Positions 2,336 through 22,042 of a stretch of DNA of 22,042 bases are shown here, one piece after another. The notes under the pieces were generated by a model that saw nothing but the letters and a program-made list of their open reading frames with translations, had not been told where the DNA came from and made no database searches. The position numbers and the translations under genes are program-made. The DNA comes from a virus. The DNA is taken from positions 1 to 22,042 of the IMG/VR virus record IMGVR_UViG_3300037586_005185; one strand, given 5' to 3'. Each line of letters starts with the position of its first letter. Within the stretch, counting starts at the first letter, position 1.

Positions 2336-2634
2336 GCAAGAAAAATTTAGAAATACTTATTGACGAAGCGCTAGATAATATTCGCAGCGACAGAAAAGTG
2401 GCCCGAGAATTTTTAAATGAAATTGCTAACCAAATTGCAAAAGACGAAGAACAAAATAAATATTTGAGCCCCGTCGCCGCAAAACACATAGAAACGCTGC
2501 AACGATCAAACGAACAACTTGTAAAGCTGATAGGTTTAAGACAAAAGGCCGGCGCCCAAGATCTTGGCCTAACAGATGAAGACAAAAATAGTTTATTTGA
2601 TATGATTCAAGGAGATTTGATCGATGGCAATTAA
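2332..2634 (+). CDS. 100-residue coupled protein, candidate late co-activator (gp33-like) or other small phage factor
   Basis: Translation most likely begins at the ATG of the ATGA overlap with the sigma gene; an in-frame ATG at 2314 would add six residues but lies deeper in the sigma gene. The protein is mostly helical and charged. A C-terminal element, NSLFDMIQGDL (residues 86-96), closely resembles the sliding-clamp-binding peptide at the end of RB69 DNA polymerase (SLFDMF). In T4 late transcription, gp33 and gp55 both carry C-terminal clamp-binding motifs, and gp33 is 112 residues long. Tight coupling to a gp55-like gene therefore makes a gp33-type role attractive. No broad similarity to gp33 was recognised; a small terminase subunit or unrelated factor cannot be excluded. 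Family assignment is weak, while the existence of the gene is well supported. Confidence 0.8.
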   Translation: MSKKNLEILIDEALDNIRSDRKVAREFLNEIANQIAKDEEQNKYLSPVAAKHIETLQRSNEQLVKLIGLRQKAGAQDLGLTDEDKNSLFDMIQGDLIDGN

Positions 2635-3874
2635 GAATTTTTTGGATTGGTCACAATTTACAACCCGCGGTGGAGGTTTAGAATTATTTGGAAATGCGAT
2701 TAGAAAATCTTTAGAATTTAATCAATATGGAGATCAGACAACTTTCCGCGCAGTTGCTTTAACTGATGCGCATCCGCTACAATCCGGAATAGCCAACCTC
2801 CAAGAACAACGCATTACCGGGCAAGAGTCAGAAGCCAGCAGCGAACTATTGGCCACCATCGAAAAGAAATTAACAAATTTTATACTTAAAGCAAGAATCC
2901 TTGGAGACAATTCGCCCCATTCTTTTTTACCCGATCCTTGTGATCCGACAACAGCAGCCGATCCAGACCAATTAATATCGATTATTAAAATGCACACTAG
3001 CTTTGTATCAACGGCTGATTCACTCCTCAGTGATGAGCCTATGGTAAAAAAAGGAGATATTATTTGGGTAGAGTTAAAGAAAAACGTTTTTTCATATGAT
3101 TTGCAATTTGGTAAATTTTTACAAAAGGCGCGGGATAAAGAAGTCCTCGCAGAGACCTCTGCCGTCTGCGGCACTTTATCTACTATGGATTGGGGATCCG
3201 GGGTTGTTGGAGAAGGCGCCACCGAAGATCCAGGCGGATTTAAGTGGTCAAATCGTCAAAGACAATATACTGTTACGTGGCAATCTACTGAGTTTCCTGA
3301 ATACAACGGCAAGATTCTAAAGAATGGCGAAATTGAAGATTCTGGAATGCTGGTTACGGATCCCGAATCCGGCGCCCAGTTAGTTCAGCCCGCGATGAAC
3401 GATTTTCTGTTACTTGCAGCAGCATATAAAGCAAAGTTTAATGGCAAGTCACTCACTGGTTATGGTTATCGTACATACACGGGCCAGGTCTCGGCCCGAA
3501 TGATAAGAGTCGCCGGTGACCAAAATTGCGGTAACCCTAACGGCGAAGGTTCCGGCGATAAGGACGCAAATTGTAAGTTTGTAGGCGCCGCGGCCACACC
3601 AGGAAGGTCTAATCATGGTTGGGGAGCAGCAATTGATCTAAGAGGAAGCCAATTTCGATCCGCCGCCAAAGGGGGCACAGCGCCCGATAATGAAGAATTT
3701 AAATGGATAAACAAGTTTTCTAAAAACTATAACTTTGTTTTTGGAGTTAGCGATGAGCACTGGCACCTTGATTGGATGAAGTATAGTCAAAACGTTGTCG
3801 GCCTCCCGCGCCCAACTGCTCAAAACTCCTGGACAGCAGAAGGCCAAAATGATGATAGTATAACTCTTACTTAA
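2624..3874 (+). CDS. gp5-like baseplate hub / cell-wall-cutting protein with M15 peptidase domain
   Basis: A 416-residue protein. The N-terminal part (about 35-180) looks like the OB-fold of T4 gp5-type hub proteins, ending in GDIIWVELKKNV. The C-terminal part is a VanY/M15 zinc peptidase: GYGYR at 279-283, SNHGWGAAID at 329-338 with zinc ligands H331 and D338, and DEHWH at 377-381 with catalytic E378 and ligand H381. Such enzymes cut peptide links of peptidoglycan (D-Ala-D-Ala carboxypeptidase or L-Ala-D-Glu endopeptidase). No signal peptide is present. AAGGAG at 2609-2614 gives a good ribosome site, and the start overlaps the previous gene by 11 bases. Position before a spike-like gene and gp25 favours a tail-tip enzyme over a free endolysin, though endolysin remains possible. 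The OB-fold call is from pattern only. Confidence 0.82.
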   Translation: MAIKNFLDWSQFTTRGGGLELFGNAIRKSLEFNQYGDQTTFRAVALTDAHPLQSGIANLQEQRITGQESEASSELLATIEKKLTNFILKARILGDNSPHSFLPDPCDPTTAADPDQLISIIKMHTSFVSTADSLLSDEPMVKKGDIIWVELKKNVFSYDLQFGKFLQKARDKEVLAETSAVCGTLSTMDWGSGVVGEGATEDPGGFKWSNRQRQYTVTWQSTEFPEYNGKILKNGEIEDSGMLVTDPESGAQLVQPAMNDFLLLAAAYKAKFNGKSLTGYGYRTYTGQVSARMIRVAGDQNCGNPNGEGSGDKDANCKFVGAAATPGRSNHGWGAAIDLRGSQFRSAAKGGTAPDNEEFKWINKFSKNYNFVFGVSDEHWHLDWMKYSQNVVGLPRPTAQNSWTAEGQNDDSITLT

Positions 3875-3915
3875 AAATATTAAGCTATAACTAAACGAAA
3901 AAAGCAACAAAACAC

Positions 3916-4923
3916 ATGTCAGATAAAAAGAAATTATTTACAACAGAACATCTTAATGATTTTCTTCAACAAAACTATAGAACGCCACATCAAATTCTTG
4001 AGGAAGGAGGAGCATTAAATGAGGCTACTGCCGGCCTTTTGCAGACAGATGTTCCAGAGCCAACGCCTAGTTTTATTGCTGCAAAAAGCACTAAGATTCT
4101 TTCACATAAAAATTCACATATCGTTTTTGGGAGAGATCGTCCATCTACTTTGGGTTCTGGTTTTGGTGGGGTAGGTGCGCAAGGAACAAATACGATTGAT
4201 ATAGTTGTTGGGCGAATGTCAAGTGTTGAAATTGATGATGGAACTCATGTTGATAACAGTTTCACTGCAGATGCTGCTAGAATTTATATAAGCCAACTAA
4301 CAAAAGTTGATGAAAATTTTGGATTAGCAGATAGCCCTAGTGTTCCCAAAAAACCAGCTTCAGCGATTGCTATGAAAGCAGATGGAATTCGAATTATAGG
4401 TAGAGAGGGTGTTAAAATTGTGACCGGTGGCCATCCTGGCGCCGGCGAGAAAACCTCTCTCGGCGGCCGCATCGGCGCTGCCCCCGGTATTGATTTAATT
4501 GCCGGTAACTTTACCGATCCGCGAAGGACCCTCCCAGATCCATGGCCCGATCTAACAGAGTATGGTTTCCCACCTGTCGACACCCTCCAGCCACTTTTAC
4601 TAGGAAAGAATACAAAACAAGCCTTGCAAGAATTAAGTCAAATTATAGACGAAATTTGGAGCGCGGTATATTGGATGGCCATAATTCAGAATAATGTGCT
4701 TAGTACAATGTCGGCATGTCCCGTGGGCCCCGCCCCCGCGCGCGGGGGCGGAGGAGTCGGCCCAGTCGTTTCAGGCGTGTCGCTGGCCATGACTCAGCTT
4801 ATGCCAACATGGGTTTTCTCTCCTCTGGGGCAAACACGCAATACTAAAATGGTTTGGGAAAGAAACTATTTAGAACCATATGGACACAAGTATATTTGTA
4901 GTAAAAGCGTAAGGTCAACGTAA
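3916..4923 (+). CDS. spike-like virion protein (putative central spike component)
   Basis: A 335-residue protein likely to be part of the tail tip. A short N-terminal helical region leads into beta-rich sequence with SHIVFGRDRPS, an ARIYISQLTKVDENFGL segment and ADGIRIIGREGVKIVTGG (about 155-173). The last pattern is typical of short-strand beta-helix or spike proteins in marine T4-like phages (recollection). Residues about 230-262 are helical, followed by a Gly/Pro/Ala-rich linker encoded by a GC-rich palindrome and a Trp/Tyr-containing C-terminus. It starts 41 bases after the peptidase gene with no clear Shine-Dalgarno in an A-rich leader. In T4 the OB-fold, lysozyme and beta-helix are one gp5 chain; here the helix-like part appears as a separate gene. 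It could also be another baseplate component. Confidence 0.7.
   Translation: MSDKKKLFTTEHLNDFLQQNYRTPHQILEEGGALNEATAGLLQTDVPEPTPSFIAAKSTKILSHKNSHIVFGRDRPSTLGSGFGGVGAQGTNTIDIVVGRMSSVEIDDGTHVDNSFTADAARIYISQLTKVDENFGLADSPSVPKKPASAIAMKADGIRIIGREGVKIVTGGHPGAGEKTSLGGRIGAAPGIDLIAGNFTDPRRTLPDPWPDLTEYGFPPVDTLQPLLLGKNTKQALQELSQIIDEIWSAVYWMAIIQNNVLSTMSACPVGPAPARGGGGVGPVVSGVSLAMTQLMPTWVFSPLGQTRNTKMVWERNYLEPYGHKYICSKSVRST
4730..4751. repeat. 22-base perfect GC palindrome inside the spike gene
   Basis: The left arm CCGCCCCCGCG (4730-4740) is the exact reverse complement of the right arm at 4741-4751, with no spacer. A GGGCCC palindrome abuts it at 4725-4730. It encodes the Pro-Ala-Arg-Gly-rich linker of the spike-like protein. 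All 22 bases are G or C in a strongly AT-rich neighbourhood, so a very stable stem or cruciform is possible. No U-run follows, so a classical terminator is unlikely. Confidence 0.9.
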
Positions 4924-4944
4924 TAATGTTATTGGAGATTTAAA

Positions 4945-7900
4945 ATGGCAGAATCTAAATTTTTAAAATATCAAGATAAAAATAGAGATGGATTAACTGA
5001 TGTCTGCGAAGATAAAGTTATAGTTGCTCCTATAGATAATTGCAATGACTGCAAGCCAGTTCCTAATGCTACCGTACCAAGCTGGAAAAATTTAACAATT
5101 GAGGAGCCTTATTTTAACGAAAGAGAAGCACTATACCAAGTAACCAAAGTTACCCCTTATTCTACGACAGGTGCTGATGGGGATTCTTCTTCAGAAGAAT
5201 CCGATGCTATCATTAAAGAGAGATTTGATGAGTTTGTTTATGAAGCAATGGAAGCATTATTGATCGCCAACGATAAGGATACTTCAAGCTCGACACAACA
5301 GGGAGTAAAACCTTATGTTGAATATAGTGATTATTATTTAGATGTTCTTCCATCATCTAGATTAAAATTATTATATTCTATACCTTGTGATATTTTTAAT
5401 GCGATAATAGAAGCCGAAGAGGAAGAGGAAGAGAAAGAGCCGGGCCCCGAAGACGAAGTTGCTCACCAAGTAACTTATGATACCGCTGATTTTTTAGAAA
5501 AACTAAAAAAGGTTCGTCAAGGCATGGGCCTATATTCGACTTATCTTAAAGTATATCAAGCTGTTGATAGTGGTAATTTAATTTTTGATGCCGGCCCACA
5601 AGAAGGTGCTGTTTTTTTTCCTGGGATATATGGAGACCGTCTTGGATTAAAGCCCGGAAAAGTATTATATAAAGTTGGCAGCCATTTAACATCATTTCTT
5701 AATGATAGAAAGATTAAGATTCCTGGCGAGTTCTGGTGCGGGTTCCGTTGTAATAGCGCTGCGAAGCTAATATTTAAATTTAATAGCGAATATAAGTTAA
5801 TAGAACTGCACGTATTCACAGAAAATTGTGGAAACGTTCCTCGGATATTTAAAGGAAAGCAGCTAAATGCTTTAAATAATAAAACTAATTCGGCGTATAG
5901 GGATCCAACCGCCATGAATTATTTGATAAACCTAGATGCGATGGAGAGAGATCTCACAGCACGCACTCCGAAACCCTGGCTAGATTTTCTAATTGAATAT
6001 ACCTATCCACAAGTTTATTCTTCTATTAATCATGCACATGACAACGATTTAAAGGAAGGCGCGCCCGCAAGTTGTGTAGCTAAAGCTCTGGGAGACGAAG
6101 CTAAACAGTTAGGGCAAGACCTTTTAGATGAGGCCTTTGGACTAGTTGATGCTATTCTTCTTAAGTTTAACGAAAAACTATGCAAGTGGGATGGAGAAGA
6201 AGTTAAAGCAAATTGGAAAGAAATTGGCTTAATATATGATCCGGATGATTCAGAGGGAAAAAAGAGTTTATGGGCATTTGCACAAGAGCAAGCCTTAGAA
6301 GATATAGATTTTGCACACACGCCATTCGATAGTCTCTGCGCAGGAATAATAGATAAGTTAAATGGCTCTTCTAGTGTTGATGATACAATTGAAAGAGTAT
6401 TTACGGAAGATCTGGCACAAATTAAATTATGTGGCCTCTCAGAATTATTGATGGAGGCTCTCTCTTGCATGTTCCAGGGGCTATCCCTGGAGGAAGCACT
6501 GTCTAGGGTATTAAAAGCGGCTCTTAAGGGAATGTCAATTGATAATTTTGGTGCGTTATTTGTAGGATTACCACCAGAAAAACAAGCAGAATTAGATGCC
6601 TTAGTAAAGAAAAAAATTGAAAGCGGTGATATTTTTAAAGACACCGGCGCAAATCAAGAGCTTTCAGACACAATAGCAGTAGCAGCAACAAGTACTGCAG
6701 CCGGAACAGTAGAGCACCCATGGAAAGCCAACCCAGAAGATCCTACAAAGGGCGGTACTCCAGGAGTCACAGTTGAAAGCACTATATCTGGTAAATCTAA
6801 TAGGCCCTTGGCTAAGACATTTGATGCGGGATCTGCAGAAAACAGAGCTAAACTTAATCCCAATGTTGTATTACAAGCATATGTTATAGCTATATTAGAA
6901 ATTTATAATGATAACTATCTAGAATTATTAAATGAACTTAATAAATTTCCTGGCGCCAATATAATAGCACATGTTATTGCTTCAATTAGTTGTCCAAGGC
7001 CCCCCACCAATTCAGAACTAGGAATTAGTTGGATTAAAGACGTTGAACTTCCATCACTTTGTGATATAGGTAAGTTTGACATATCGATGCCGCCTTTTAA
7101 AAATCCATTTGATTGGCTACCGGGAACAAAAGATCTCTTCGGCCTTATTCAGCAGGCGGCAATAGAAGCAATTCAACAGATGGTTATAAATATGGTGAAG
7201 ATAGTTCTGACGAGATTATGCAGCATCCTCGGTGATGCCGCATGCTCGGCCCTAGCACTCGCAGGAGATCTTGCAGCGTCCTTACCAGATGTACTAACGG
7301 GTCGCGACACATTTAAAAACATCATTAAAGAATCGCTTTGCGGCGACGGCGCCGATAGCGATACTGTTGATGATACAATGGTTGAGATGCTAGCCAATTT
7401 AGGCCTAGGCGCCGCAGCCTTTGCAGATGAAGAAAGGTTAATGGAGTTTGTAGGAGACGTATCATCAAACGCCACAGCGCAGCAGTGGGCTGATATTTTG
7501 AATGGATCGCCACCAGCAGCATTTTTATCAATTATCGATAACTTAATAGAATATGAATATACAGAATATAGAGACATCCTTCCAACAGAAGAACATCTTA
7601 CAAACTTATTTAAACAATGCGGTAATTTAATGCCCGTAGCAGATAGAAGCGCACTCGCTGCAGCCGCGGCAGCCATCGCTGATGGCCAAGTAAACCCAAG
7701 CCTTTGCGCCTCACCAGAACAGGTCGCAGCGCTTGAAGCTGCAAGATGCGAACTTATGCAAGGTCGCGCCACAGAAGAACAATGTCGTCAGATGCAGCCC
7801 GATCCTGATATTGAAGAAATAGCCAGCTGGGCCCACAACCCACCATTTATATTTCCTCCATTAATATCCGATCCAGGTTGTGATAATGGAATTTTACCAT

Positions 7901-10900
7901 ATGAACCAAAACAATCTGCAGAGGCAGCTTCCAGCGGAATTAGCGATCAACTAGAGGCATTAAAAAATGATTTTTCTACAGACATGCTAGGGTCTGGGCC
8001 CTGGGAATCAGATTATGGGCTTCTTAATATGATTTTGTCAGATACTCACGGTAATCCATATACAGCCCATGTAAGAAGGGTTGCTAATGATTTCGGAAAA
8101 CAACAATATGTTGATTTTTATGTCGACGATGCTGAAGTCGACCGGAAAGATAAAGGAATCTGGTATGATGACATAGAGGAGCAATATGGAGCTTTCCCTA
8201 TAGATGTTGCTAGTTGGTTACAAGATCAGATGACCGGTACACCGATTAGTGTTGTTTCAAATAATATATTAGATCCAGGCTCCAGAATACCGAAGTTTTA
8301 TGACGGATCCGATTCTGATTTAGAAGGGACGATTTCATATGAAAGTTTAGAATATAATACAAGGATAGAAATAGATGCTGCAGCAAAAAAGGTAGTATTT
8401 TTTAAAAAACCACGGAAGGCCGCTCCAGATTTAGAGATAGAATTTCACGAAAATCATGAAGACAGAGGTTGGAGATACGAGCTTTATTTATCAGATTTAA
8501 TCGAAACAGAGGATACATCACAAATAATCAATAGACCAGACGATAATGCTAGAGTAGTAATATATGAAATTGAAGGTGAAGACGAGGAAGACGAGGAGTA
8601 CGAAGAAGAGGTGGTTTATGAATTTTTATCATCTGACGATACTTTAAGTAAGATTAGCACATTTGAATATCCAGCTTTTCGCGCGACATTCCAAGGCCAC
8701 CAACCCTATTTGCCACAGGTTGTATTGCTGCATGAAATGCTTAAGCAAAGCGCCCCAACTGTTTCTTTAAGTAAAGATCAGGTTAAAGAATATTATGATT
8801 CACATATGTCAGAAATAATAAATGATATAAAACAGGAAATTGCCGATAATGAAGACGCTTTTACTTTTGGTGCTGCATTTGATGATTTATTGATTGGCGA
8901 TATAGAATATGTTGTCAACAAAGGACAAACTTCCGCTGATGGAGGGACGCGCTATAAAAAAGTAGAAGTCCCGGAATATGATAGCGATGGCGATCCTGAT
9001 GGAACAAGAAAAATTAAAAACAGAGATCAAATATTAGGTATGAGTCAAATGCAATATAATTACGAACGAGATCCGGACTCAGCCGTTCCAAATAGGGTGT
9101 TTTATTTAGATCCAGCAACTTTTGGAGGTTCATATAAGAATCCGCCTCTGTATATTAAATCAGTTGAAAATAAAGGCTGGCTTGGATTCGTTAATGTGGT
9201 GTTTCCGGAACTAAGTCCCTGTAAGCCATCTAAAACAGATGTAATTGATTTTGAAGATATTCAAGAAAAAATCTATAACACATACTCAAAAACTCCCGAA
9301 GACGAGAGATTAAAATCAGATCCAGAATGCATTGTAGAAAATCCATATGAAAGAATATTAGAAAGGCCCTCTGTTGCAGGATTGGAAGGATTAATTACGG
9401 CAACTATAAGAATATTTGCATCAGTTCATTTTATAAAATCTCTTGCAACATTTACTAAATTCAGGCCAACTTTTCCAGATAACTTTAGTTCAATGTATGC
9501 CGATTTTATTATCGAAGATATGGAGAAGTCTTTTCTTGATGCACAAGGAAGTTTTGCTGAAGCTTTTAATACCTTTAAAGACGATGAATTTTGGTATGCA
9601 TTTTTAGAGCAAGCTGTACAATTATATGATAGAAGATCTGATGTAGATCGCGATGGCGATATTGTAAATCCCCCAGCAACAGCGGTTAACGCATTGATAG
9701 AAATTAATGATTTAATTGAAAGATTAGATATTCCAACCGAAACAGAATGGAAAGAACAAGAAAGATTAAAGGCCTTCGCCTCGGGCCCGGGCGCTTCCCT
9801 AGTAACTGCCGGTCTCTCGGGCCTTATAGCTGAATCTTATCAAGAATTTAAAGATAAAAAAGTTTTTAACTTTATACGCGCCACAGAAGATAAAGCAAAA
9901 GTGGTTCTTAAGCAATTAGTATTAGAGCAACTTGAGTACATGGGTAAAAAATTTATAGACAATTTAGAAGCTATTGATATGCAGCCAGATATTTATGATT
10001 TAGCATATTATCTATTAGAAAACTTTACTGCAGGAGGCGAGGACCTAGACTTAAGAAAAGAAAACCTTAAAGAAGATTTTTCAAAATTAGAAGAAGGAGA
10101 CGGGCAATATACGAGTGGTGGCGACTTTAGTCTCCCAGATGGTTCAGATTATATTGGATACTATCATAGCAATGAAGACGAAGAAGGTAATATAGTTTTT
10201 ATGGCTGGAGAAACCCATGTAGTAGATAGCCATGAGACCCTTACCCCATTAGAAAGTAGGATTATAGTACCAATTGGAGATATTAGCGATTATGGGACAG
10301 AAACAGGCACCAGTACAGACCCATTTGTAATAGAAAAATATATAAGCATTGAGGGAGTAAAATATAATATAGCAGAAGCTCTTGCAATAATTAAAGCCAA
10401 TGATAATTCTCTAAATGTTTCTGATATTTATGCCGGCTCGCTTAGGCACGTAACGGATGATGCTGGAAGAATTGTTGGAGTTGGTGGCAAGCTGGGAATT
10501 AGATATGGATTAGAATTTTCTGCCTATATCTCTTCTGTTGCAAGTAAAATAACAATTACTAATGTTGAAATAAACGCACTAGATACTACTATAGGACAAG
10601 TGAGCGCCCTAGAAGCAAACAGTAAATTATTGTTATGCCTTATTAATAATCTCAAAGAAGACGACAAGTTCAAACTAATGTACCAGTATATTTTTCCGTT
10701 TAATAAAATGACTTCCTTTATGGCAATTTATAATGATTTAAGCTTTTTAAGTTCTATTGGACAAACATCAACTGAAGAACCCGCCCGCGGGACGGAGAAC
10801 GCTAGCGAAAAGGCCGGCCGGGCTGTTACAATCAAAAAGGTAGGTCGTGGAGACGACAAGTATTATGAAACTAGTATAGCAGACGGACAAAAAGGCTGGG

Positions 10901-11211
10901 ATCCCCCTGACTCCCGCTCGCAGCGCATGTTTGTAAGAGAATACGATAATTGGGATAGAACCTTATTAAGAAACTCAAAAGCTAGAGTTAAAAAAATATT
11001 TAAAGGATATTATTTTTCAAGAGACTTTGATCCTATGTCGGCATTTAAAGGCAGAGGCGGAAGAGGGAAACCTTCATTTCCATGGTTAAAGAATCTCAAA
11101 ATGAGCTTTAATAAGGCCCCTGGTGAAGAATTACTCACATGGTTCCAGAGACGCCGGCTTCGTGATAATCCATTTAATTCAAAAGGGGCCTTGTGCAAAA
11201 AGAAAGAATAG
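4945..11211 (+). CDS. 2088-residue putative virion/baseplate protein of unknown family
   Basis: A single uninterrupted frame with GGAG at 4934-4937, seven bases before the ATG. I do not recognise the family. The N-terminus holds a textbook EF-hand-type calcium loop (D11, N13, D15, G16, D19, E22). Further Asp-rich loops occur near residues 1346-1352 and 1566-1572. Acidic tracts lie near residues 154-168 and 1211-1225. Long helical, partly hydrophobic stretches lie around 730-800, including cysteines, but no clear signal peptide or export signal is seen. The C-terminal end is basic. Its place between the spike-like gene and gp25, and its size, suggest a structural baseplate, hub or tail component; T4 has no protein of this size here. 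A tape-measure role is less likely because coiled-coil repetition is not evident. Confidence refers to a real structural gene, not to function. Confidence 0.85.
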   Translation: MAESKFLKYQDKNRDGLTDVCEDKVIVAPIDNCNDCKPVPNATVPSWKNLTIEEPYFNEREALYQVTKVTPYSTTGADGDSSSEESDAIIKERFDEFVYEAMEALLIANDKDTSSSTQQGVKPYVEYSDYYLDVLPSSRLKLLYSIPCDIFNAIIEAEEEEEEKEPGPEDEVAHQVTYDTADFLEKLKKVRQGMGLYSTYLKVYQAVDSGNLIFDAGPQEGAVFFPGIYGDRLGLKPGKVLYKVGSHLTSFLNDRKIKIPGEFWCGFRCNSAAKLIFKFNSEYKLIELHVFTENCGNVPRIFKGKQLNALNNKTNSAYRDPTAMNYLINLDAMERDLTARTPKPWLDFLIEYTYPQVYSSINHAHDNDLKEGAPASCVAKALGDEAKQLGQDLLDEAFGLVDAILLKFNEKLCKWDGEEVKANWKEIGLIYDPDDSEGKKSLWAFAQEQALEDIDFAHTPFDSLCAGIIDKLNGSSSVDDTIERVFTEDLAQIKLCGLSELLMEALSCMFQGLSLEEALSRVLKAALKGMSIDNFGALFVGLPPEKQAELDALVKKKIESGDIFKDTGANQELSDTIAVAATSTAAGTVEHPWKANPEDPTKGGTPGVTVESTISGKSNRPLAKTFDAGSAENRAKLNPNVVLQAYVIAILEIYNDNYLELLNELNKFPGANIIAHVIASISCPRPPTNSELGISWIKDVELPSLCDIGKFDISMPPFKNPFDWLPGTKDLFGLIQQAAIEAIQQMVINMVKIVLTRLCSILGDAACSALALAGDLAASLPDVLTGRDTFKNIIKESLCGDGADSDTVDDTMVEMLANLGLGAAAFADEERLMEFVGDVSSNATAQQWADILNGSPPAAFLSIIDNLIEYEYTEYRDILPTEEHLTNLFKQCGNLMPVADRSALAAAAAAIADGQVNPSLCASPEQVAALEAARCELMQGRATEEQCRQMQPDPDIEEIASWAHNPPFIFPPLISDPGCDNGILPYEPKQSAEAASSGISDQLEALKNDFSTDMLGSGPWESDYGLLNMILSDTHGNPYTAHVRRVANDFGKQQYVDFYVDDAEVDRKDKGIWYDDIEEQYGAFPIDVASWLQDQMTGTPISVVSNNILDPGSRIPKFYDGSDSDLEGTISYESLEYNTRIEIDAAAKKVVFFKKPRKAAPDLEIEFHENHEDRGWRYELYLSDLIETEDTSQIINRPDDNARVVIYEIEGEDEEDEEYEEEVVYEFLSSDDTLSKISTFEYPAFRATFQGHQPYLPQVVLLHEMLKQSAPTVSLSKDQVKEYYDSHMSEIINDIKQEIADNEDAFTFGAAFDDLLIGDIEYVVNKGQTSADGGTRYKKVEVPEYDSDGDPDGTRKIKNRDQILGMSQMQYNYERDPDSAVPNRVFYLDPATFGGSYKNPPLYIKSVENKGWLGFVNVVFPELSPCKPSKTDVIDFEDIQEKIYNTYSKTPEDERLKSDPECIVENPYERILERPSVAGLEGLITATIRIFASVHFIKSLATFTKFRPTFPDNFSSMYADFIIEDMEKSFLDAQGSFAEAFNTFKDDEFWYAFLEQAVQLYDRRSDVDRDGDIVNPPATAVNALIEINDLIERLDIPTETEWKEQERLKAFASGPGASLVTAGLSGLIAESYQEFKDKKVFNFIRATEDKAKVVLKQLVLEQLEYMGKKFIDNLEAIDMQPDIYDLAYYLLENFTAGGEDLDLRKENLKEDFSKLEEGDGQYTSGGDFSLPDGSDYIGYYHSNEDEEGNIVFMAGETHVVDSHETLTPLESRIIVPIGDISDYGTETGTSTDPFVIEKYISIEGVKYNIAEALAIIKANDNSLNVSDIYAGSLRHVTDDAGRIVGVGGKLGIRYGLEFSAYISSVASKITITNVEINALDTTIGQVSALEANSKLLLCLINNLKEDDKFKLMYQYIFPFNKMTSFMAIYNDLSFLSSIGQTSTEEPARGTENASEKAGRAVTIKKVGRGDDKYYETSIADGQKGWDPPDSRSQRMFVREYDNWDRTLLRNSKARVKKIFKGYYFSRDFDPMSAFKGRGGRGKPSFPWLKNLKMSFNKAPGEELLTWFQRRRLRDNPFNSKGALCKKKE

Positions 11212-11236
11212 GTAGTATTTATGGAGGGAGCAACAC

Positions 11237-11605: not shown

Positions 11606-11621
11606 AATAGAGGTTTTATAA

Positions 11622-13421: not shown

Positions 13422-15130
13422 TGGCGATTAAAAAATATGTAGCCGATGCTGATACAACTATAGTTAATGCATATCAACCAAGTTTAACTAATCGTGGCAC
13501 TGGCTCAAACATGGGTGAAGCTGATGTATTAGAAGTGTTTTCTATCTATGGAAGACAAACAACTAGTTCTGCAGAATTGTCGAGAGCTTTAATTAAGTTT
13601 CCTGTAAACACTATTTCTACTGATAGAACAAACGGTGTAATCCCAGCTAGTGGCAGTGTAAGCTTTTATCTTCGTATGCATGATGCACAACATTCGAAAG
13701 CTGTTCCACGAGATTTTAAGTTAGCTGTTTTATCTGTATCCCAATCCTGGGAAGAAGGCATCGGTTTAGATTTAGAAGGCTACGCAGATAAAACTTTTGG
13801 TAAAATTGGCTGTAACTGGATGTCTGCATCTAAAACAGCGTATTGGACAGACAAATCCGGCCAACTCCTTGCGGGCGGCTCATATCATACGTCAAGTACT
13901 GCGTCAGAAGAAGTATTTTTACTAACACAGTCTTTTTCAACAGGAATAGAAGATTTAGAATTAGACATTACACCGTTAGTAGAGCAGTGGATCGCCGGAA
14001 CATATTCAAATTATGGGGTAGGCGTACACTTATCAGCAAGCTATGAGGCTTTTTGGTCTGGTTCTGCCAACCTCGTTACGAGCAGAGGGCCACCCGGAGT
14101 AATAGATAACAAGGGCGCCGATGATACGACACAAAGTGTCTTGTATAACCCAAGTGGCTCAAAATCATCTTATTATACTAAAAGATTTTTTGCGAGAGGT
14201 TCACAATATTTCTTTAAGCGCCCAAGTATTGAAGCAAGATGGAATGATATAGTTAGAGATGATCGCGCCGATTTCCGATTTAGCAGTTCTTTGGCCCCCG
14301 CGGCAGACAATTTAAATACATTATATTTTTATAATTATGTTCGTGGACAATTAACAGATATACCAAATTTAGGGTCGGACAAGAGAATTTATATAAGTAT
14401 TTTTTCGGGCTCATCCGGCGGATTCTACGGTAGCTATGCAGATAATGTAGCGCCCGCCGACCTCCCAGTATCGGGCACCACAGGAAGTATACAAATTTTG
14501 TCGGCCGATGATGGAGGCAGCGTCCGAAGCGGTTATCTAACCGTTGTAACAGGCGGTATTGTGTCAACAGGAATTTACAGTGCATCATTTGCCTTTACAG
14601 GATCGTCAACACTAGAGACAATATATGATGTATGGTTTACGGGTAGTCACAATACTATAAATGCATACGATGCACTAACACAATATTTTACCGGCTCAGC
14701 TAAAACAATAACCCCGCGCGCCTCCAATACGATTTCAAGACCAAGTTACTATCTTAATGTTACAAATTTGCGCAATAGATACAACAGCAACGACACTGTG
14801 CGATTTAACCTATACGTTAGAAACAAGAACTGGTCTCCAACTATCTACAATGTAGCAAATTCAACTGTTGAAACCACCACAATTCATAGTGCATCTTATA
14901 GAGTTTATAGGACGCTAGACGCCTACGAAGCAGTTCCTTACGGAACAGGAAGCGAGCTGCATACAGGGCTTTCTTATGATGTTTCAGGAAATTATTTTGA
15001 TTTTAATATGAAACTTTTAGAGCCTGGATATGAATATGCATTTAAATTTGCTTTCTATGATAATAAACTAAAAACATGGATTGAGCAAGACACCGCGTTC
15101 AAATTTAGAGTAGAAAACTATGAGTATTAA
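13421..15130 (+). CDS. virion structural protein with DNRLRE-like domain (gp7-position)
   Basis: A 569-residue protein that is probably an outer baseplate or adhesin subunit. The N-terminal part (about 45-210) fits the DNRLRE fold of extracellular beta-sandwich domains: a RALIKFPVNTI strand, SWEEGIGLDLEG near 108-119, and DITPLVEQWIAGTYSNYGVG at about 182-201. The middle is Ser/Gly/Thr-rich beta sequence. The C-terminal third (about 435-569), with YYLNVTNLRNRYNSNDTVRF and a closing EYAFKFAFYDNKLKTWIEQD, looks like a separate beta domain. No catalytic motif is seen. Translation is coupled to gp6 by a one-base overlap. In T4 the next genes would be 7 and 8, but I see no direct similarity to them. 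Confidence 0.82.
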   Translation: MAIKKYVADADTTIVNAYQPSLTNRGTGSNMGEADVLEVFSIYGRQTTSSAELSRALIKFPVNTISTDRTNGVIPASGSVSFYLRMHDAQHSKAVPRDFKLAVLSVSQSWEEGIGLDLEGYADKTFGKIGCNWMSASKTAYWTDKSGQLLAGGSYHTSSTASEEVFLLTQSFSTGIEDLELDITPLVEQWIAGTYSNYGVGVHLSASYEAFWSGSANLVTSRGPPGVIDNKGADDTTQSVLYNPSGSKSSYYTKRFFARGSQYFFKRPSIEARWNDIVRDDRADFRFSSSLAPAADNLNTLYFYNYVRGQLTDIPNLGSDKRIYISIFSGSSGGFYGSYADNVAPADLPVSGTTGSIQILSADDGGSVRSGYLTVVTGGIVSTGIYSASFAFTGSSTLETIYDVWFTGSHNTINAYDALTQYFTGSAKTITPRASNTISRPSYYLNVTNLRNRYNSNDTVRFNLYVRNKNWSPTIYNVANSTVETTTIHSASYRVYRTLDAYEAVPYGTGSELHTGLSYDVSGNYFDFNMKLLEPGYEYAFKFAFYDNKLKTWIEQDTAFKFRVENYEY

Positions 15131-18100
15131 AAAGCTTTTTCAATCTACAGAGGAAGTCAGAAGTTACCAAGCCGATACAACACAAAAAGATTTATTCGAA
15201 GATGTTGAATCGGCAAGAAACGCTGAGGCAATAAAAGAGCAACAAGAAGCTTATATTGCCCCTGTTGATTATTCAAAGCCGCAACAATTTGCTAGATATG
15301 GATCTGCGTATTTATATTATAAAACAGCAATTGATCGTATCCTCGATTATTATCCATATGATGGCTCAGACGCTGAAATAAATGAATTTGCTAATAAAGC
15401 TCTAGGCGTTGATAGATATGTATTTAATAACGTTTATCCGCGCACAAATGGCTATGCAATTTTCAGTCCGGATGACTCGGGCAACGGGTGGGGAGATACC
15501 GGTTCTCTTCCGTCCGGTTATGGCCTGCCGAGTACATTAGAACATATCACTTTTAAAGGTGGTCCTGGAACAGGTTCGTTCGCGTCGGGCAGCAGCTTAA
15601 AAACGATATCATATAATGAACAAAATAGCAAGTTTCAACACGCCAATATATATGACGAAGATATTTATACGACTGCGGGTCTCCCATCGAATTATGGATC
15701 GGGGTCTCGTGAATCAAACTTAAAATCGAACTTTGAGCGCGGCGTTACAATAGAATTTTGGGCAATAACGGGCTCTGATTGTTCTCTAGATCATTTAGGC
15801 GTTCGAACTCAGAAACAAGTACTAGTAGATATTTGGAACGGTAGCTTGTCTGGTTCGCTCGACTATAGTAGAATTACAATTGAGTTAAACGCATCTGCTA
15901 GCAGTGGCACCTCTCCGTTTTTAATTACTGCTCTGTCTGGAACAGCTTCTGGATCCTATTGCGCTGGTATTTTCTCGAACTCCGTAGGAAAGAGTATTAC
16001 AGTTGACACACTCTCTTCGTGGCATCATTATGCATTAGTTTTGCAAAACTCTGGAAGCGATCTGATAACAAAGTTCTATCTTGATGGTAAGCTAAACCAC
16101 ATGTCTTCCTCTGCTAACTCTAAGCTAGGAGAATTGACAGCAAAGAACATGAAAGGCCGTATCGGCGCACTTCTAACAGCGCCTTCTGGAACAGTGCCAG
16201 CCGATCCAACGTCTCTAGCAGGTGCCGGAAAACTTTCTGGCTCAATTGACGAATTCCGATTCTGGAAGGTTGCGAGAACAGCCAAAGAAATTGGAACAAG
16301 TTGGTTTACTCAGGTCCGCGGAGGTGTTAACACGGACATTTCTAATACCGAATTAGGCCTATATTATAAGTTTAACGAAGGGATCACGGGTACCGCAAGT
16401 GTTGATCGTACAGTTTTAGACTATGGTGGTCGTATTGCAAATGGTGTTTGGACAGGATATAGCTCCAATTCAAGAAATACAGGCTCTGCAATAGTTTCAG
16501 CCTCCGCAGCAGCAACAGAGTATGAAGACCCAATTGTATATGCATCTCATTCAGATGTTACATCACTTAAGACTTTGCTTTTGGCTACCGGTTCTTATCA
16601 CGATTCTACTAACAACAATATGATTCAGAGCTTAGCACCATCTTGGGTTATTGAAGAACATGATGATTCAGAAAATAATAATTTAAATTATCTTTCACAT
16701 ATTATCGGCGTTTATTTCGATAAATTATTTTTGCAGATTACAAGCTTACCGGGAATAAAACAGACAAATTATCCAAGCTCATCTCACAAGCCGCTGCCTT
16801 TCGCAGAGCACTTGCCCCAAAGTTTAGGTCTATACACACCAGAGCTTTTTATTGATGCGTCGATAATGGAAAAGTTCTTAAACAGAAATGAGACATCGTT
16901 ATTTGAGGGCGACTTAGACGAAACAAAGAATTTAATTTACATTAATTTGTATAATAATCTCGCCAACATATACAAAAGCAAGGGTACTCACCGCGCCATT
17001 AGAAATGTTTTTAGATGTTTTAATATTGATGAAAATCTGCTTAAATTAAATGTTTATACAAACAATCAAACATATGAGCTTAAGAATAATTTAAAACAAT
17101 ATGTTACCAATAAGAAATTTTTAAACTTTAATACAGCTAGTAATCTAGGTGCCGTGGTATATCAGGCTCAAGACCGTGCTCACGCAACTGCAACAATAAC
17201 CTTTGCTGGAGCAGCGAGCAACGGCGACAGTATTACAATAGTCGATACTGCTGGTACAAGCAAAACATATGCTGTTGCATCTGCTACCGATGCGGCTTCG
17301 GGAGAGTTTGCAGGCGAACCGGCCGGCGGCATGAACGGCTTAGCTAATGGTTTGGCATTATGTATTGCAAATGCAGCAGGTCACAATGGAACAATTACTA
17401 CTTCTGCAACTGCAACAGGCCAAATTACTTTGACACAGGCTGTTGGTGGTACCGCTGGAAATACTACAATTACCAAAGGTAGGTTTGCAACTGCAACAAT
17501 AACATTTGCTGGGGCAGCGAGTAATGGTGACACTATTACAATAGTCGATACTGCTGGTACAAGTAAGACATATACTGTCGCATCTGCTACTGACGCAGCT
17601 GCGGGGGAGTTCGCGGGCGAACCAGCAGGCGGCATGAACGGTTTAGCTAATGGCTTGGCATTATGTATTGCAAATGCAGCAGGTCACAATGGAACAATTA
17701 CTACTTCTGCAACTGCAACAGGCCAAATTACTTTGACACAAGTCGGCGCCGGTTCCGATGGAAATACTACAATTACCAAATCTGGCTTAGGCGTAGCGAC
17801 AGTTGTGCAATGGAGTGGTGGTACAGATACAGGCTTAGGCGTAGCGACAGTTGTGCAATGGAGTGGTGGCGCAGGTAATGACGAAAGCCTTGGGTATATC
17901 TCGGGTTCACTAGCGGGCCAGTCTGGCGGCCATGGCTATGAAGACAAATATGGCCTTACAGTAGAAGCTGATATTACATTCCCATACTATTCATATGAAA
18001 AAGAGGATTTTCCCCGCACATTCTTAACAGCATCACTCTTCGGGATGCATACTGTTGATACAGGAAGCGCTGATTCAAAGAGCGGCACTAACACGGGATT

Positions 18101-21100
18101 TGTATCCAACTTAGCTACTGCTCAACCTGACCTCGCCAACTTCCAGGTGATGGCCATTAGGCCCCGCGGGAAATCTAAGAATGTTTATTTCCAACTAACA
18201 TCATCAAACTATCCTTACCCGATCTCTTCAGATATTCACAGCGCCATTACCAGTAGTATATTTTTCAATGTATATGACCAAGAACGTTGGAATCTATCTG
18301 TCAGAGTAAAGCCTAGTACCTATCCACTTGCGGGAATAGTTAGTGGCGCCTCATCCACCCACCCTGGAATAACCGCACCCGTGGGCTTAACGTATACATA
18401 CGATGTTATATTCCGCGGCGTTAGCACGGGAGTTGACTCTCCATCAAAGAGTTTCGAAGTAACGGGATCCATGACCCGGGCCGCCGGAGAATATTTTCTT
18501 CGCTCAGCGAAAAGAGTTTATACTGGAGCGCGAAGAACAAATCTTACTGGTGCGCTTCTAAACCAATCTGATGTATTGGTTTCATCAATTAAATATTGGG
18601 CAAAATATCTCGATAATAGTGATTTAAACCAACATGTCGATGATTTCGAGAATTATGGAATATCAGATTCATATAGAAATATTTCTGCATTAGATCCAGG
18701 TCTCGAAATGACTGACGGCACCAACACCCGATTGGATATTCTTAATTTAAACACCCTAGCCTTAAACTGGAATTTTGTTAATGTGTCTAGTTCGGGCGAT
18801 GCTAGCAGCCCTCTGTCTAGCAGTTTTTATGTAACAGATATTAGTTCTGGTTCCGCGCTGCTTAGGAATAATTATGGCTGGGTTGGTAATTTGGCAGGAT
18901 ACCAGCATACAGGATACGGAGCACATTTTCCAACAGCATCAACAACAGTTGTCAACAAGCAACTGGTTAATACATATAAATTTATTGATCCAGAACAAGC
19001 AGTTTCGGCCGATATGATTAAAATTTTATCGGATGATGACAGAGTATATGGTGTTGTAGAGACCGTACCAAATTATTATTATACCCTAGAAAAGAGCATG
19101 TATGGTGCAATTTCGGAAGAGATGTTGGATTTTTTTGCCGGGGTCGTTGACTTTAATAATGTTATTGGAGAACCCGTCAACAGATATCGGGAACGATATA
19201 AGAATTTAGAAAAATTAAGAGAAATTTTCTTTAGAAAAGTAACAACAGTATCGGATGTAGAAAAGTTTATTGAATATTATAAATGGTTTGATGACACGCT
19301 TTCTATAATAATTGGCCAGCTTTTACCGGCCTCAGCAGAGTTTTCTTCCGATGTTTATAATACAATTGAAAGCCACGCCCTTGAAAGAAATAAATACAAG
19401 ACCCCATACCCAACATTAGAGTTTGAGGAGCCAGATCTAAATCAAGCACTTGAAGGCGTCAAGGCCGGCTCTTATGATTGGCATCAAGGATCTTCCAACA
19501 TCACGGCTTCCCCTCGTGATACTAAAACTAGATTAGCCTTTTGGCGTGAGCGCGCCCTTAGATCAGCAGAGGAAATCACTGCAAGGAAAGATCTTCCCAG
19601 CAACACTACTTTGGCCGATATTATTGACTCACAAAGAGAAACAATTCGTAAAGTTTCTTGGTCATCACCTCGAATGAGTCAAAGCTTTCCAACTTCATTT
19701 ACTGATCAAGGAGCAGTATACCAAAGCAGAGAATTTGCAAAGAGAAATTTCAATAAAATTGCAATTGAAACAGTAGACAAAATTGATGCTATTGGAGGAG
19801 GAGTTAATTTTGAACAATCAAAAAACATTCACTTTACTTATGATGCATTATACCCGGCCGGCCCAATAAACTTAGCGGATGGCAGTTACACACCAGAAAA
19901 TGTATTGGTTGGGTTCACAGAAGATGTTGTAAAATTACAAAAGCTTGAGATGTTAGACTCTAACCTCACTAATAAGAAAATTAAACGAAACATTAAAGTT
20001 CAACATGGTAGAGATTGGGAAGATGGCTTAGGAAAGTTAAACGTTAGATCGGCTATAGCATTCCCGTTCAATATAATGAGTTCTTCAGTTGTAAGTGGTT
20101 ATAATAAAGCTGTTGTCAATTTAGTAACTGCAAGCATAGAAATTACCAACTTACATAATGATGTGTATGGTCGCGACATGGAGGTGCCAATGCAAGGCCC
20201 CTTTACAAACCATGTTGTCGGCGGCCACCAATCCCGCCACGTACCAATAAATTACGGTTCAGACAGCTATTCAAGTCGACCCGAAGCTTGGAAATTATTA
20301 TTAGGCAGATGTGTAGATGATACTGTTACCAGCGGCGCCATTGGTCTCGTCGGCGCCGACTACCCCTGGCCAGAAGCTAACGATCCAGGTTCAACACCAT
20401 ATCCTATGACAGCTTCTCAAAAGGCTGTATATTATAGAGATTTAGTTGCCAAGAGCCCAGTTAATATTAAAAATATTCTTCTTACTAGCGGCTCTACTCC
20501 TGGTTCTGTGAAGCTTGGAAATTATCGTAAAAACTATGAAGTCGTTAGTACCTTTGGCGCCTATGCCAACCCTAGGTGGTTTCTGGATCACCAACCAGTA
20601 TTGCCGGCAACAATTACAGACCAAGGTAACTTAACTGCTTCAAGTGTAGTGGGAACAATTTTGGCAATCGAGCGCGCCGAAAATATTGGACAGGGTTTCA
20701 AGCCAGATCATTTTGATTGGGATATAGGATATTTAGTAACCGACAATAGCAGTTCTGCCGATAATAAATCTATCATTACACAGCGATTTGGTGCCCCCGG
20801 AGGCAGAGAGACATCCGCAAGAATGATGAGAGACATCCGCTCCGGCGAATTTTCAGTCTACAATACCTTAAATAATCGTAACTTAACAGTTATAAAGCCT
20901 TCACAAGGGCCGGCCAACACATCCACCGTGACAGGCGCCCTCGACGAGCCAGTTGGCATCCGCGTTTCTGATATTCATTTTGAAGACTATGGCTTAAACT
21001 CTCATGTCTCTCGCCATAGTGCACAGTTTGGCTTAGATGCACTGCAATCTGCAGATTATTTATTAACTACTGACTTAGTTACGCCCAGTTCTGGTAGCAC

Positions 21101-22042
21101 ATATACATATAGATCCAAAGATTCACTACAGGGTTGGTGGCGATTAAATACAGATGTTTTTGCATCCGGGGACGCAATAGATAGCAGCGGGAAAGACCGT
21201 GCCGGCTCTATTTCCCCCGCCGGCGACCGGCCGAGGTTTGATCCATACAATTATCCGGCCGAAAAAATTCAAACAGCCACATGTATTTTTGATGGCACCG
21301 ACGATCAAATAGATATTGGTACCTCAGTGGTATGGGATAAAATTATTGGGAACAATACATCTGCCGGCTCAACCCAATTAATGACTTTTTCAGCTTGGGT
21401 TAATGTGGCGCCAGGGTCCGGCCTCGACCGAATACTTGATTTTGGCAACCGGGATATTGTACTCATTACTCATGGCACAAGTAAATACGTTGGTTTTGAA
21501 ACATCATGGAATGGCTCTACCATCACAAAGGTGACGGCCAACAACACAATTGAAACGGGCAAGTGGCACCATATTGCCGTTACATACGATGCCAACACCA
21601 CAGGTAATGTGCCCAAAATATATATTGATGGTGAACACATAGCCGTAACAGGCGGCTCCCCATCGGGAACATGGGATGGCATTTCCGGAGTCAACTGTTA
21701 TATTGGTGGCTATACTGCTTTTTTCACGGGTCGCTTGGCCGATATTGCAGTCTGGAATTCAATACTGCATCTAGACGAGATCAAAGCACTTTATAACTTT
21801 GGTTCTACTTTTGATTCTCGCCCAAGTATGTTTAAGACTAATAGAAACCCAAAAAGAAGAGCCACCATGGAAATTGGCTACAACCAGCAAACTCTTGACG
21901 GCATAACAGGATCAACCTATCGGTATGATAACCTTAATGTTCAGCATCCAATTCCACAAATGGACCGACAATATTCATGGGTAGCGAACTCGATTGTTAA
22001 ATCTGATGATTTACGATATTTCGGAAGGGCTACTATTGATGG
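15120..22042 (+). CDS. giant virion protein with two LamG-like domains and tandem repeat insert, 3' truncated by window edge
   Basis: The frame from ATG 15120 stays open to the window end (2307 complete codons). It begins 11 bases inside the previous gene. A LamG/concanavalin-like domain lies at about 205-395 (WHHYALVL at 301-308, GSIDEFRFW) and a second at about 2003-2228 (WHHIAVTY at 2149-2156, IYIDGEHIAV, then LADIAVWN). Between them is a helical baseplate-like region containing YKSKGTHRAIRNVFRCFNID (618-637), a motif style seen in tail proteins, and a conserved-looking LEKLREIFF...YYKWFDD segment (1363-1395). A Gly/Ala/Thr-rich insert of about 230 residues with duplications occupies about 689-920. 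The likely role is sugar-binding adhesin plus baseplate component. It may replace gp7/gp8 functions. The stop is not visible. Confidence 0.88.
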   Translation, partial: MSIKKLFQSTEEVRSYQADTTQKDLFEDVESARNAEAIKEQQEAYIAPVDYSKPQQFARYGSAYLYYKTAIDRILDYYPYDGSDAEINEFANKALGVDRYVFNNVYPRTNGYAIFSPDDSGNGWGDTGSLPSGYGLPSTLEHITFKGGPGTGSFASGSSLKTISYNEQNSKFQHANIYDEDIYTTAGLPSNYGSGSRESNLKSNFERGVTIEFWAITGSDCSLDHLGVRTQKQVLVDIWNGSLSGSLDYSRITIELNASASSGTSPFLITALSGTASGSYCAGIFSNSVGKSITVDTLSSWHHYALVLQNSGSDLITKFYLDGKLNHMSSSANSKLGELTAKNMKGRIGALLTAPSGTVPADPTSLAGAGKLSGSIDEFRFWKVARTAKEIGTSWFTQVRGGVNTDISNTELGLYYKFNEGITGTASVDRTVLDYGGRIANGVWTGYSSNSRNTGSAIVSASAAATEYEDPIVYASHSDVTSLKTLLLATGSYHDSTNNNMIQSLAPSWVIEEHDDSENNNLNYLSHIIGVYFDKLFLQITSLPGIKQTNYPSSSHKPLPFAEHLPQSLGLYTPELFIDASIMEKFLNRNETSLFEGDLDETKNLIYINLYNNLANIYKSKGTHRAIRNVFRCFNIDENLLKLNVYTNNQTYELKNNLKQYVTNKKFLNFNTASNLGAVVYQAQDRAHATATITFAGAASNGDSITIVDTAGTSKTYAVASATDAASGEFAGEPAGGMNGLANGLALCIANAAGHNGTITTSATATGQITLTQAVGGTAGNTTITKGRFATATITFAGAASNGDTITIVDTAGTSKTYTVASATDAAAGEFAGEPAGGMNGLANGLALCIANAAGHNGTITTSATATGQITLTQVGAGSDGNTTITKSGLGVATVVQWSGGTDTGLGVATVVQWSGGAGNDESLGYISGSLAGQSGGHGYEDKYGLTVEADITFPYYSYEKEDFPRTFLTASLFGMHTVDTGSADSKSGTNTGFVSNLATAQPDLANFQVMAIRPRGKSKNVYFQLTSSNYPYPISSDIHSAITSSIFFNVYDQERWNLSVRVKPSTYPLAGIVSGASSTHPGITAPVGLTYTYDVIFRGVSTGVDSPSKSFEVTGSMTRAAGEYFLRSAKRVYTGARRTNLTGALLNQSDVLVSSIKYWAKYLDNSDLNQHVDDFENYGISDSYRNISALDPGLEMTDGTNTRLDILNLNTLALNWNFVNVSSSGDASSPLSSSFYVTDISSGSALLRNNYGWVGNLAGYQHTGYGAHFPTASTTVVNKQLVNTYKFIDPEQAVSADMIKILSDDDRVYGVVETVPNYYYTLEKSMYGAISEEMLDFFAGVVDFNNVIGEPVNRYRERYKNLEKLREIFFRKVTTVSDVEKFIEYYKWFDDTLSIIIGQLLPASAEFSSDVYNTIESHALERNKYKTPYPTLEFEEPDLNQALEGVKAGSYDWHQGSSNITASPRDTKTRLAFWRERALRSAEEITARKDLPSNTTLADIIDSQRETIRKVSWSSPRMSQSFPTSFTDQGAVYQSREFAKRNFNKIAIETVDKIDAIGGGVNFEQSKNIHFTYDALYPAGPINLADGSYTPENVLVGFTEDVVKLQKLEMLDSNLTNKKIKRNIKVQHGRDWEDGLGKLNVRSAIAFPFNIMSSSVVSGYNKAVVNLVTASIEITNLHNDVYGRDMEVPMQGPFTNHVVGGHQSRHVPINYGSDSYSSRPEAWKLLLGRCVDDTVTSGAIGLVGADYPWPEANDPGSTPYPMTASQKAVYYRDLVAKSPVNIKNILLTSGSTPGSVKLGNYRKNYEVVSTFGAYANPRWFLDHQPVLPATITDQGNLTASSVVGTILAIERAENIGQGFKPDHFDWDIGYLVTDNSSSADNKSIITQRFGAPGGRETSARMMRDIRSGEFSVYNTLNNRNLTVIKPSQGPANTSTVTGALDEPVGIRVSDIHFEDYGLNSHVSRHSAQFGLDALQSADYLLTTDLVTPSSGSTYTYRSKDSLQGWWRLNTDVFASGDAIDSSGKDRAGSISPAGDRPRFDPYNYPAEKIQTATCIFDGTDDQIDIGTSVVWDKIIGNNTSAGSTQLMTFSAWVNVAPGSGLDRILDFGNRDIVLITHGTSKYVGFETSWNGSTITKVTANNTIETGKWHHIAVTYDANTTGNVPKIYIDGEHIAVTGGSPSGTWDGISGVNCYIGGYTAFFTGRLADIAVWNSILHLDEIKALYNFGSTFDSRPSMFKTNRNPKRRATMEIGYNQQTLDGITGSTYRYDNLNVQHPIPQMDRQYSWVANSIVKSDDLRYFGRATID
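17184..17477 (+). repeat. tandem duplicated module, copy 1 (unit 303 bases)
   Basis: This encodes residues 689-786 of the giant LamG protein, beginning ATATITFAGAASNGD. The second copy starts exactly 303 bases downstream, preserving frame. The module is Gly/Ala/Thr/Ser-rich and probably all-beta. Bases 17352-17437 are identical to the second copy, while the preceding 168 bases carry about 21 differences, most of them synonymous. Confidence 0.95.
17487..17780 (+). repeat. tandem duplicated module, copy 2
   Basis: Second copy of the module, residues 790-887. It shares the identical 86-base block (17655-17740) and a final 21-base block with copy 1. A segment of about 20 bases between them differs strongly, giving VGAGSD in place of AVGGTA. 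Confidence 0.95.
17784..17869 (+). repeat. 48-base tandem repeat, two copies (38 bases identical)
   Basis: Immediately after the larger duplication, 17784-17821 recurs without change at 17832-17869. Each unit encodes GLGVATVVQWSGG plus a three-residue spacer (residues about 889-917). The unit length keeps the frame. It may vary in copy number between relatives through slipped pairing. Confidence 0.95.

Follow-up and report, generated by a model that had tools for sequence, protein, structure and literature searches.

Contiguous G+C palindromes, foremost GGCGCC and GCCGGC, are in excess throughout a family of marine T4-like phages

The stretch of 22,042 bp analysed in the current work (here referred to as the window), which is contained in the IMG/VR virus record IMGVR_UViG_3300037586_005185, represents part of the genome of a marine, distantly T4-like phage (the marine origin of the samples being presumed from their identifiers), and carries the hexameric palindromes GGCGCC and GCCGGC in numbers far above those predicted from its composition or its proteins. 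The excess is shared by the related phage genomes and acts at the level of the DNA, not being driven by codons. We place high confidence in this description of the excess as real, family-wide and DNA-level.

The window has a GC content of 39.3% and contains 18 copies of GGCGCC and 17 of GCCGGC (Table 1), where 1.27 of each would be expected from base composition and 2.54 from dinucleotides, which places these words at ranks 1 and 2 for over-representation among the 64 hexameric palindromes. A preliminary description of the sequence had given about 18 and about 16 copies, a GC content of roughly 40%, an expectation of one to two copies of each and an in-frame position for nearly all of the sites checked, and the exact figures bear it out: 17 of the 18 GGCGCC copies are GGC-GCC codon pairs, 13 of the 17 GCCGGC copies are GCC-GGC, and none of the sites lies outside an open reading frame (ORF). 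The codon-preserving shuffles that it proposed as a check, in which each protein and the codon usage of each gene are kept, gave 4.8 GGCGCC and 5.4 GCCGGC, with none of 500 shuffles reaching the observed counts. Within the window, GGC-GCC is used in 17 of the 46 Gly-Ala pairs and GCC-GGC in 13 of the 49 Ala-Gly pairs, while the same codons in non-palindromic order are ordinary (GGC-GGC in 8 of 38 and GCC-GCC in 2 of 48 pairs); the comparison of the palindromic combinations (30/95) with the non-palindromic ones (10/86) corresponds to an odds ratio of 3.5 (p = 0.0013).

The preliminary description had made its claim depend on the recurrence of the excess elsewhere in the genome, and this was found across the rest of the related genomes. 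In a pooled set of 13 related marine T4-like contigs, GCCGGC occurs 631 times against 202 expected and GGCGCC 518 times against 188, the excess being present in nearly all relatives. In the 195-kb relative G003, GCCGGC is the most enriched hexamer of all (164 against 48, z 20), with a z of ~12 for GGCGCC. The ratios of observed to expected counts in codon phases 0, 1 and 2 are 2.75, 2.86 and 2.26 for GGCGCC and 3.12, 3.86 and 3.49 for GCCGGC. Considering that the excess is alike in all three phases, it does not reflect a preference for GGC-GCC and GCC-GGC as codon pairs or in translation, an explanation offered at the outset and seemingly favoured by the mostly in-frame position of the window sites; the sites are mostly in frame because Gly-Ala and Ala-Gly pairs are the main places for these words to occur. 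GGCGCC is in addition raised in intergenic DNA (12 against 3.0, four genomes summed), and the equal enrichment in the other two phases refutes a codon-pair preference so directly that we give it almost no chance of being correct. In its core claim of a real excess that is not codon-driven, the preliminary description was thus right, if understated.

The excess is specific to the palindromic arrangement. Expressed as observed/expected in the pooled set, GGC-GCC reaches 422/151 (2.80x) and GCC-GGC 502/161 (3.12x), as compared to 308/213 (1.44) for GGC-GGC and 166/145 (1.14) for GCC-GCC as same-codon controls, and the other G+C pairs at Gly-Ala or Ala-Gly positions are not raised (GGC-GCG 79/79, i.e. 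1.00; GGG-GCC 0.79; GCC-GGG 0.46). Most values lie between 1.1 and 1.7 for half-sites with a spacer of 1-7 bases, and between 1.0 and 1.5 for direct repeats. These figures, and in particular the unraised G+C pairs and the low values of the same codons in Gly-Gly and Ala-Ala pairs, speak against the palindromes being mostly a by-product of short clusters of GC in a genome that is AT-rich and whose host does not restrict such sites. Such an origin would agree with the likewise elevated G+C-only non-palindromes of the window (259 against 128) and with the outcome of our strictest null model, in which the G+C/A+T class is frozen at every codon position and the pooled excess is reduced to 1.44 for GGCGCC (518 against 359) and 1.60 for GCCGGC (631 against 395). 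However, the frozen null takes away true signal as well, given that at Gly-Ala pairs the joint G+C excess lies wholly in the palindromic combination, and contiguous palindromes exceed spaced inverted repeats at equal composition, so that composition as the principal cause appears quite improbable.

The latter comparison, in which inverted repeats with gaps of 3-8 served as composition control for those with gap 0, gave ratios of 1.78 (arm 3, 6-mers), 2.82 (arm 4, 8-mers) and 3.13 (arm 5, 10-mers) for G+C-only arms, and of 1.00, 0.99 and 0.95 for the corresponding AT-only arms, with no excess of spaced inverted repeats or hairpins above the control baseline. When ordered by length, all palindromes taken together stand at 1.11 (6-mers), 1.35 (8-mers), 1.48 (10-mers) and 1.62 (12-mers), and the all-GC palindromes at 4.3, 5.5 and 6.3 (8-, 10- and 12-mers). 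Symmetric C/G flanks are enriched twofold around both hexamers, and GCGCGC, CCGCGG, CGGCCG and longer G+C palindromes are also favoured in the family. From these length, flank and gap results it follows that GGCGCC and GCCGGC represent the peak of a broader excess of G+C palindromes. Growth with length and GC, doubled flanks and a multiplicity of affected cores are features that strand-switch (quasi-palindrome) mutagenesis during phage replication would generate, in which the nascent strand switches template and perfects imperfect palindromes, being best extended where these are GC-rich. Yet inverted repeats with hairpin-size loops remain at control level, no effect is seen for AT palindromes, a palindrome of six bases offers little length for priming a switch, and sister phages have the opposite sign; this mechanism is therefore considered improbable.

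The distribution of the sites was analysed along G003 and between orthologues. Nine of the ten 20-kb bins of G003 show a 2.5-3.7x excess, the exception being 100-120 kb (0.82), a bin in which both strands carry consecutive small hypothetical ORFs. Among aligned conserved Gly-Ala pairs, ~40% are GGCGCC in each genome and 326 are so in both genomes against 292 expected, while GCCGGC is found in both genomes at 91 conserved Ala-Gly pairs against 73 expected. The sites are thus nearly independent between orthologues, i.e. their density is kept as single sites turn over, and the suggestion of a functional motif spread through the late genes finds no support in either result. A weak, genome-wide selection for density is compatible with the ~40% of conserved pairs that carry the motif despite this turnover, and could act if G+C palindromes bound a symmetric phage or host DNA-binding protein with a role in packaging, nucleoid structure, recombination or anti-silencing; the requirement for zero-gap dyad symmetry and the equality of the codon phases would fit such a protein. 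Both half-site orders, other cores and longer forms are favoured, however, so that no single homodimer site fits; furthermore, positional conservation is absent, spacing in the window is irregular (coefficient of variation 1.37) and no candidate protein was identified, all of which makes this selection unlikely.

Palindromes are recognised by restriction enzymes and are for this reason normally shed by phages, and such avoidance is also seen in the family under study. The window contains neither GAGCTC nor CTCGAG, and in the relatives GAG-CTC is found in frame 0 times against 48 expected and CTC-GAG once against 47; in G003, GAGCCC and GGGCTC are each at 0 against ~20 and GGGCCC at 0 against 13, its genes being entirely without GRGCYC. 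This near-absence of GAGCTC and CTCGAG implies that a strong restriction-like pressure exists and that the G+C palindromes are gathered and not merely tolerated, opposite in sign to the usual avoidance. A host lacking such restriction enzymes, as had been suggested, could explain why GGCGCC and GCCGGC are not avoided but not why they are in positive excess. A further suggestion was protection by base modification. Phage CAjan carries 7-deazaguanine at GGC, and a phage- or host-made modification at GGC might cause the sites to be tolerated or favoured, as both hexamers present GGC on both strands and the restriction pressure is real. Nevertheless, no C5 or N4/N6-beta methylase, TGT/DpdA-like, QueC or Vsr gene was found in the 13 relatives, many of whose records are fragments, so that absence is not proof. 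The only methylases detected are of adenine families (D12 Dam-type in two relatives and PF05869 Dam in G003), adenine-specific by family name. Since, in addition, spaced GGC...GCC is near baseline and protection predicts neutrality and not a threefold excess, a protective modification is judged very unlikely, and the phage-encoded form originally proposed is not sustained. Vsr-type very short patch repair was likewise discarded as a candidate, there being no bias for T (GCT-GGC 0.77, GCA-GGC 0.53, GCG-GGC 0.68) and no vsr gene in these relatives.

Comparison with other genomes sets the family apart. Bacteroidota genomes contain GGCGCC 63 times against 80 expected and GCCGGC 114 times against 117, and overall 8-mer palindromes stand at 0.90 in Bacteroidota, 0.81 in remote isolate phages and 0.79 in sister phages of low palindrome content, as compared to 1.36 (z 32) in the high family. 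Of the 43 relatives placed in a capsid tree, 33 belong to the high class and 9 to the low one; to account for the low state, no fewer than 4 changes are needed on branches that are well supported, the exact number being soft as the high/low labels derive partly from small counts. Sister lineages avoid many palindromes, and the low lineages avoid GGCGCC (2 against 18) but not GCCGGC (16 against 17), which indicates that the two words are separately controlled; across contigs they are correlated (Spearman 0.50). In one 74-kb sister phage (G008; ~61% identity in the baseplate protein), CCGG, CGCG and G+C palindromes are depleted, and no tRNA genes were found in it.

The closest parallel is offered by the highly iterated palindromes (HIPs) of cyanobacteria. 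Cyanobacteria without HIP1 may iterate GGCGCC, as in Calothrix PCC 7103 with its GRCGYC methylases, while Oscillatoria PCC 10802 iterates RCCGGY and possesses the DmtD methylase, such alternative HIPs occurring at about one site per kb (Elhai 2015; PMC4390886). To account for them, a ratchet based on G-methylC-directed mismatch repair was proposed, the end products of which are GGCGCC and GCCGGC (PMC4390886). The words of these two cyanobacteria are identical to those of the phage family and are similarly dispersed and far above expectation, at a similar density (for the two words combined, ~1.6 sites per kb in the window and 1.4 in G003). In contrast, the present genomes are those of phages, the window being a virus record and not a cyanobacterial chromosome; both words are raised at once, the excess extends over several cores and lengths, and where alternative HIPs accompany matching methylases, no cognate methylase was found in the phage genomes searched, the relatives having adenine methylases only. 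HIP1 itself (GCGATCGC), likewise dispersed through coding DNA at ~1 per kb, differs in word and was rejected, as CGATCG is not raised (0 in the window, 54/83 in the high-palindrome panel). Searches of the literature returned no account of phages in which palindromes are over-represented.

A search for hosts with the baseplate profile retrieved contigs only in one Flavobacteriales and one Neisseriaceae metagenome-assembled genome (MAG), neither of which is taken as host, given that the former is without the signature. Bacteroidota were also screened for the 8-mer CGCCGGCG, which revealed one genome, G034 (38.8% GC), that iterates GCCGGC (74 against 25) and ACCGGT (57 against 31) but not GGCGCC. 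GCGCGC and TTGCAA are iterated in G034 too, and a 439-aa C5 DNA methylase is encoded there. The combination of iteration and a C5 methylase implies that such chromosomes exist outside cyanobacteria.

As a tentative explanation, possible rather than probable, we propose that the family acquires from its hosts a steady-state bias linked to methylation and repair. The duplex DNA of the phages would be kept rich in contiguous G+C-only palindromes, foremost GGCGCC and GCCGGC, by a bias of mutation and repair (or by very weak genome-wide selection) and not by a need for individual sites. The likeliest driver would be a repair-coupled methylation of cytosines at these palindromes by the host where, as in the HIP model of Elhai, G-methylC-directed mismatch repair may preserve newly arisen mutations by which GGCGCC or GCCGGC is formed. 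Replication in such hosts would pass the bias on to the phage, which would lose it once a host restricts these sites instead. The raised palindromes are themselves a prediction of a two-round version of the ratchet. Several results weigh against this proposal. The half-way forms of the ratchet are asymmetric in the pooled set (ACCGGC 1.52, GCCGGT 0.83, GACGCC 0.97, GGCGTC 1.07), and the other cores (GCGCGC, CCGCGG, CGGCCG) and longer forms are not predicted by two hexamer-specific methylases. Intergenic GCCGGC is at expectation (3 against 3.0, four genomes summed, comprising little sequence), and the Flavobacteriales MAG with a related contig is without the excess (12/16, 19/15). The frozen null is not significantly exceeded by the window alone (18 GGCGCC against 12.5 and 17 GCCGGC against 12.5), and as it leaves a pooled excess of 1.4-1.6x, part of the raw threefold excess overlaps with GC clustering. 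Persistence in closely related pairs (0.78 for the target words, 0.77 for same-codon controls, 0.60 for other G+C pairs and 0.73 for the rest) is a comparison that does not separate mutation from selection, and host methylation of these sites is itself inferred. It may alternatively be, though we would put this forward with reserve, that a widespread marine phage clade is subject to an undescribed DNA-level process by which contiguous G+C palindromes are built whatever their core, the effect increasing with length, and of which GGCGCC and GCCGGC are the most visible products.

The window encodes gp25 and gp6-like baseplate proteins, a VanY-domain protein, two giant proteins and a fragment of a nucleotide-sugar epimerase. 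The gene of the 2,307-aa protein contains a 294-nt tandem duplication (90% identical; window positions 17184-17780) and a second one of 46 nt (93%; 17784-17877). Membership of the T4-like myoviruses is apparent from gp25 and the wedge protein of the window and, for the rest, from G003, which encodes a Gp23 capsid protein, Portal_T4, Terminase_6N, sheath, gp19 and gp32; the evidence for capsid, portal and terminase genes thus comes from this relative, outside the window. G003 furthermore encodes a bacterial-type DNA polymerase III alpha alongside a family A polymerase, a B12-dependent ribonucleotide reductase, Cpn60, IMP dehydrogenase and a protein with a tubulin/FtsZ-domain match (PF00091, 9.9e-10). 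In G003 and a second relative (G007), AGGA, GAGG, GGAG and CAGG are strongly depleted within genes (AGGA 569 against 812 in G003), which agrees with an avoidance of Shine-Dalgarno-like sequence, and AGGA is located upstream of approximately one third of the genes. Uncultured relatives are abundant among the viral contigs of IMG/VR. The nearest cultured relatives, at ~30-45% identity in baseplate and capsid proteins, are the far-T4-like Microcystis phage Mel-JY01, Flavobacterium phage immuto and Rhodothermus phage RM378, none of which has the GGCGCC/GCCGGC excess, unlike the family of the window. Mel-JY01 iterates CCCGGG in place of these words (48 against 8.4 expected in 66 kb), with many copies in a repetitive gene by the start of the record and others dispersed, and this may be a further case of an iterated G+C palindrome among the relatives. 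A 40-kb stretch of Mel-JY01 has genes without TTATAA, GAATTC and other words.

Table 1 Coordinates of GGCGCC and GCCGGC sites and of selected genes in the window
Feature	Position	Strand	Remarks
GCCGGC	2548..2553		in frame, Ala-Gly; overlaps site 2551..2556
GGCGCC	2551..2556		in frame, Gly-Ala
GGCGCC	3215..3220		in frame
GGCGCC	3371..3376		in frame
GGCGCC	3584..3589		in frame
GCCGGC	4030..4035		in frame
GGCGCC	4438..4443		in frame; overlaps site 4441..4446
GCCGGC	4441..4446		in frame
GCCGGC	5590..5595		in frame
GGCGCC	6952..6957		in frame
GGCGCC	7348..7353		in frame
GGCGCC	7408..7413		in frame
GCCGGC	10432..10437		in frame
GCCGGC	10813..10818		in frame
GCCGGC	11153..11158		off-frame, phase 1
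GGCGCC	12033..12038		in frame
GGCGCC	12114..12119		in frame
GCCGGC	12189..12194		in frame
GCCGGC	12418..12423		off-frame, phase 1
GGCGCC	14114..14119		in frame
GCCGGC	17322..17327		in frame; within duplicated segment
GGCGCC	17745..17750		in frame; within duplicated segment
GGCGCC	18345..18350		in frame
GCCGGC	19464..19469		in frame
GCCGGC	19857..19862		in frame
GGCGCC	20334..20339		in frame
GGCGCC	20352..20357		in frame
GGCGCC	20556..20561		in frame
GCCGGC	20603..20608		off-frame, phase 2
GCCGGC	20909..20914		off-frame, phase 2
GGCGCC	20934..20939		in frame
GCCGGC	21201..21206		in frame
GCCGGC	21219..21224		in frame
GCCGGC	21363..21368		in frame
GGCGCC	21407..21412		off-frame, phase 2
2,088-aa virion-region protein, without Pfam match	4945..11211	+	contains 7 sites
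gp6-like baseplate wedge protein	11622..13421	+	PHROG 219, E 1.8e-16; query for finding relatives
2,307-aa protein with Laminin_G_3 domain	15120..22040	+	runs off contig end; contains 15 sites

The question of why genomes accumulate iterated palindromes has been standing since HIP1. A common clade of ocean phages in which G+C palindromes are gathered and two specific sites erased provides a natural test of such accumulation, and the existence of sister phages of opposite sign allows its cause to be mapped by comparison. Should the signature be shared by the host, palindrome profiles could assist in linking uncultured phages to their hosts.

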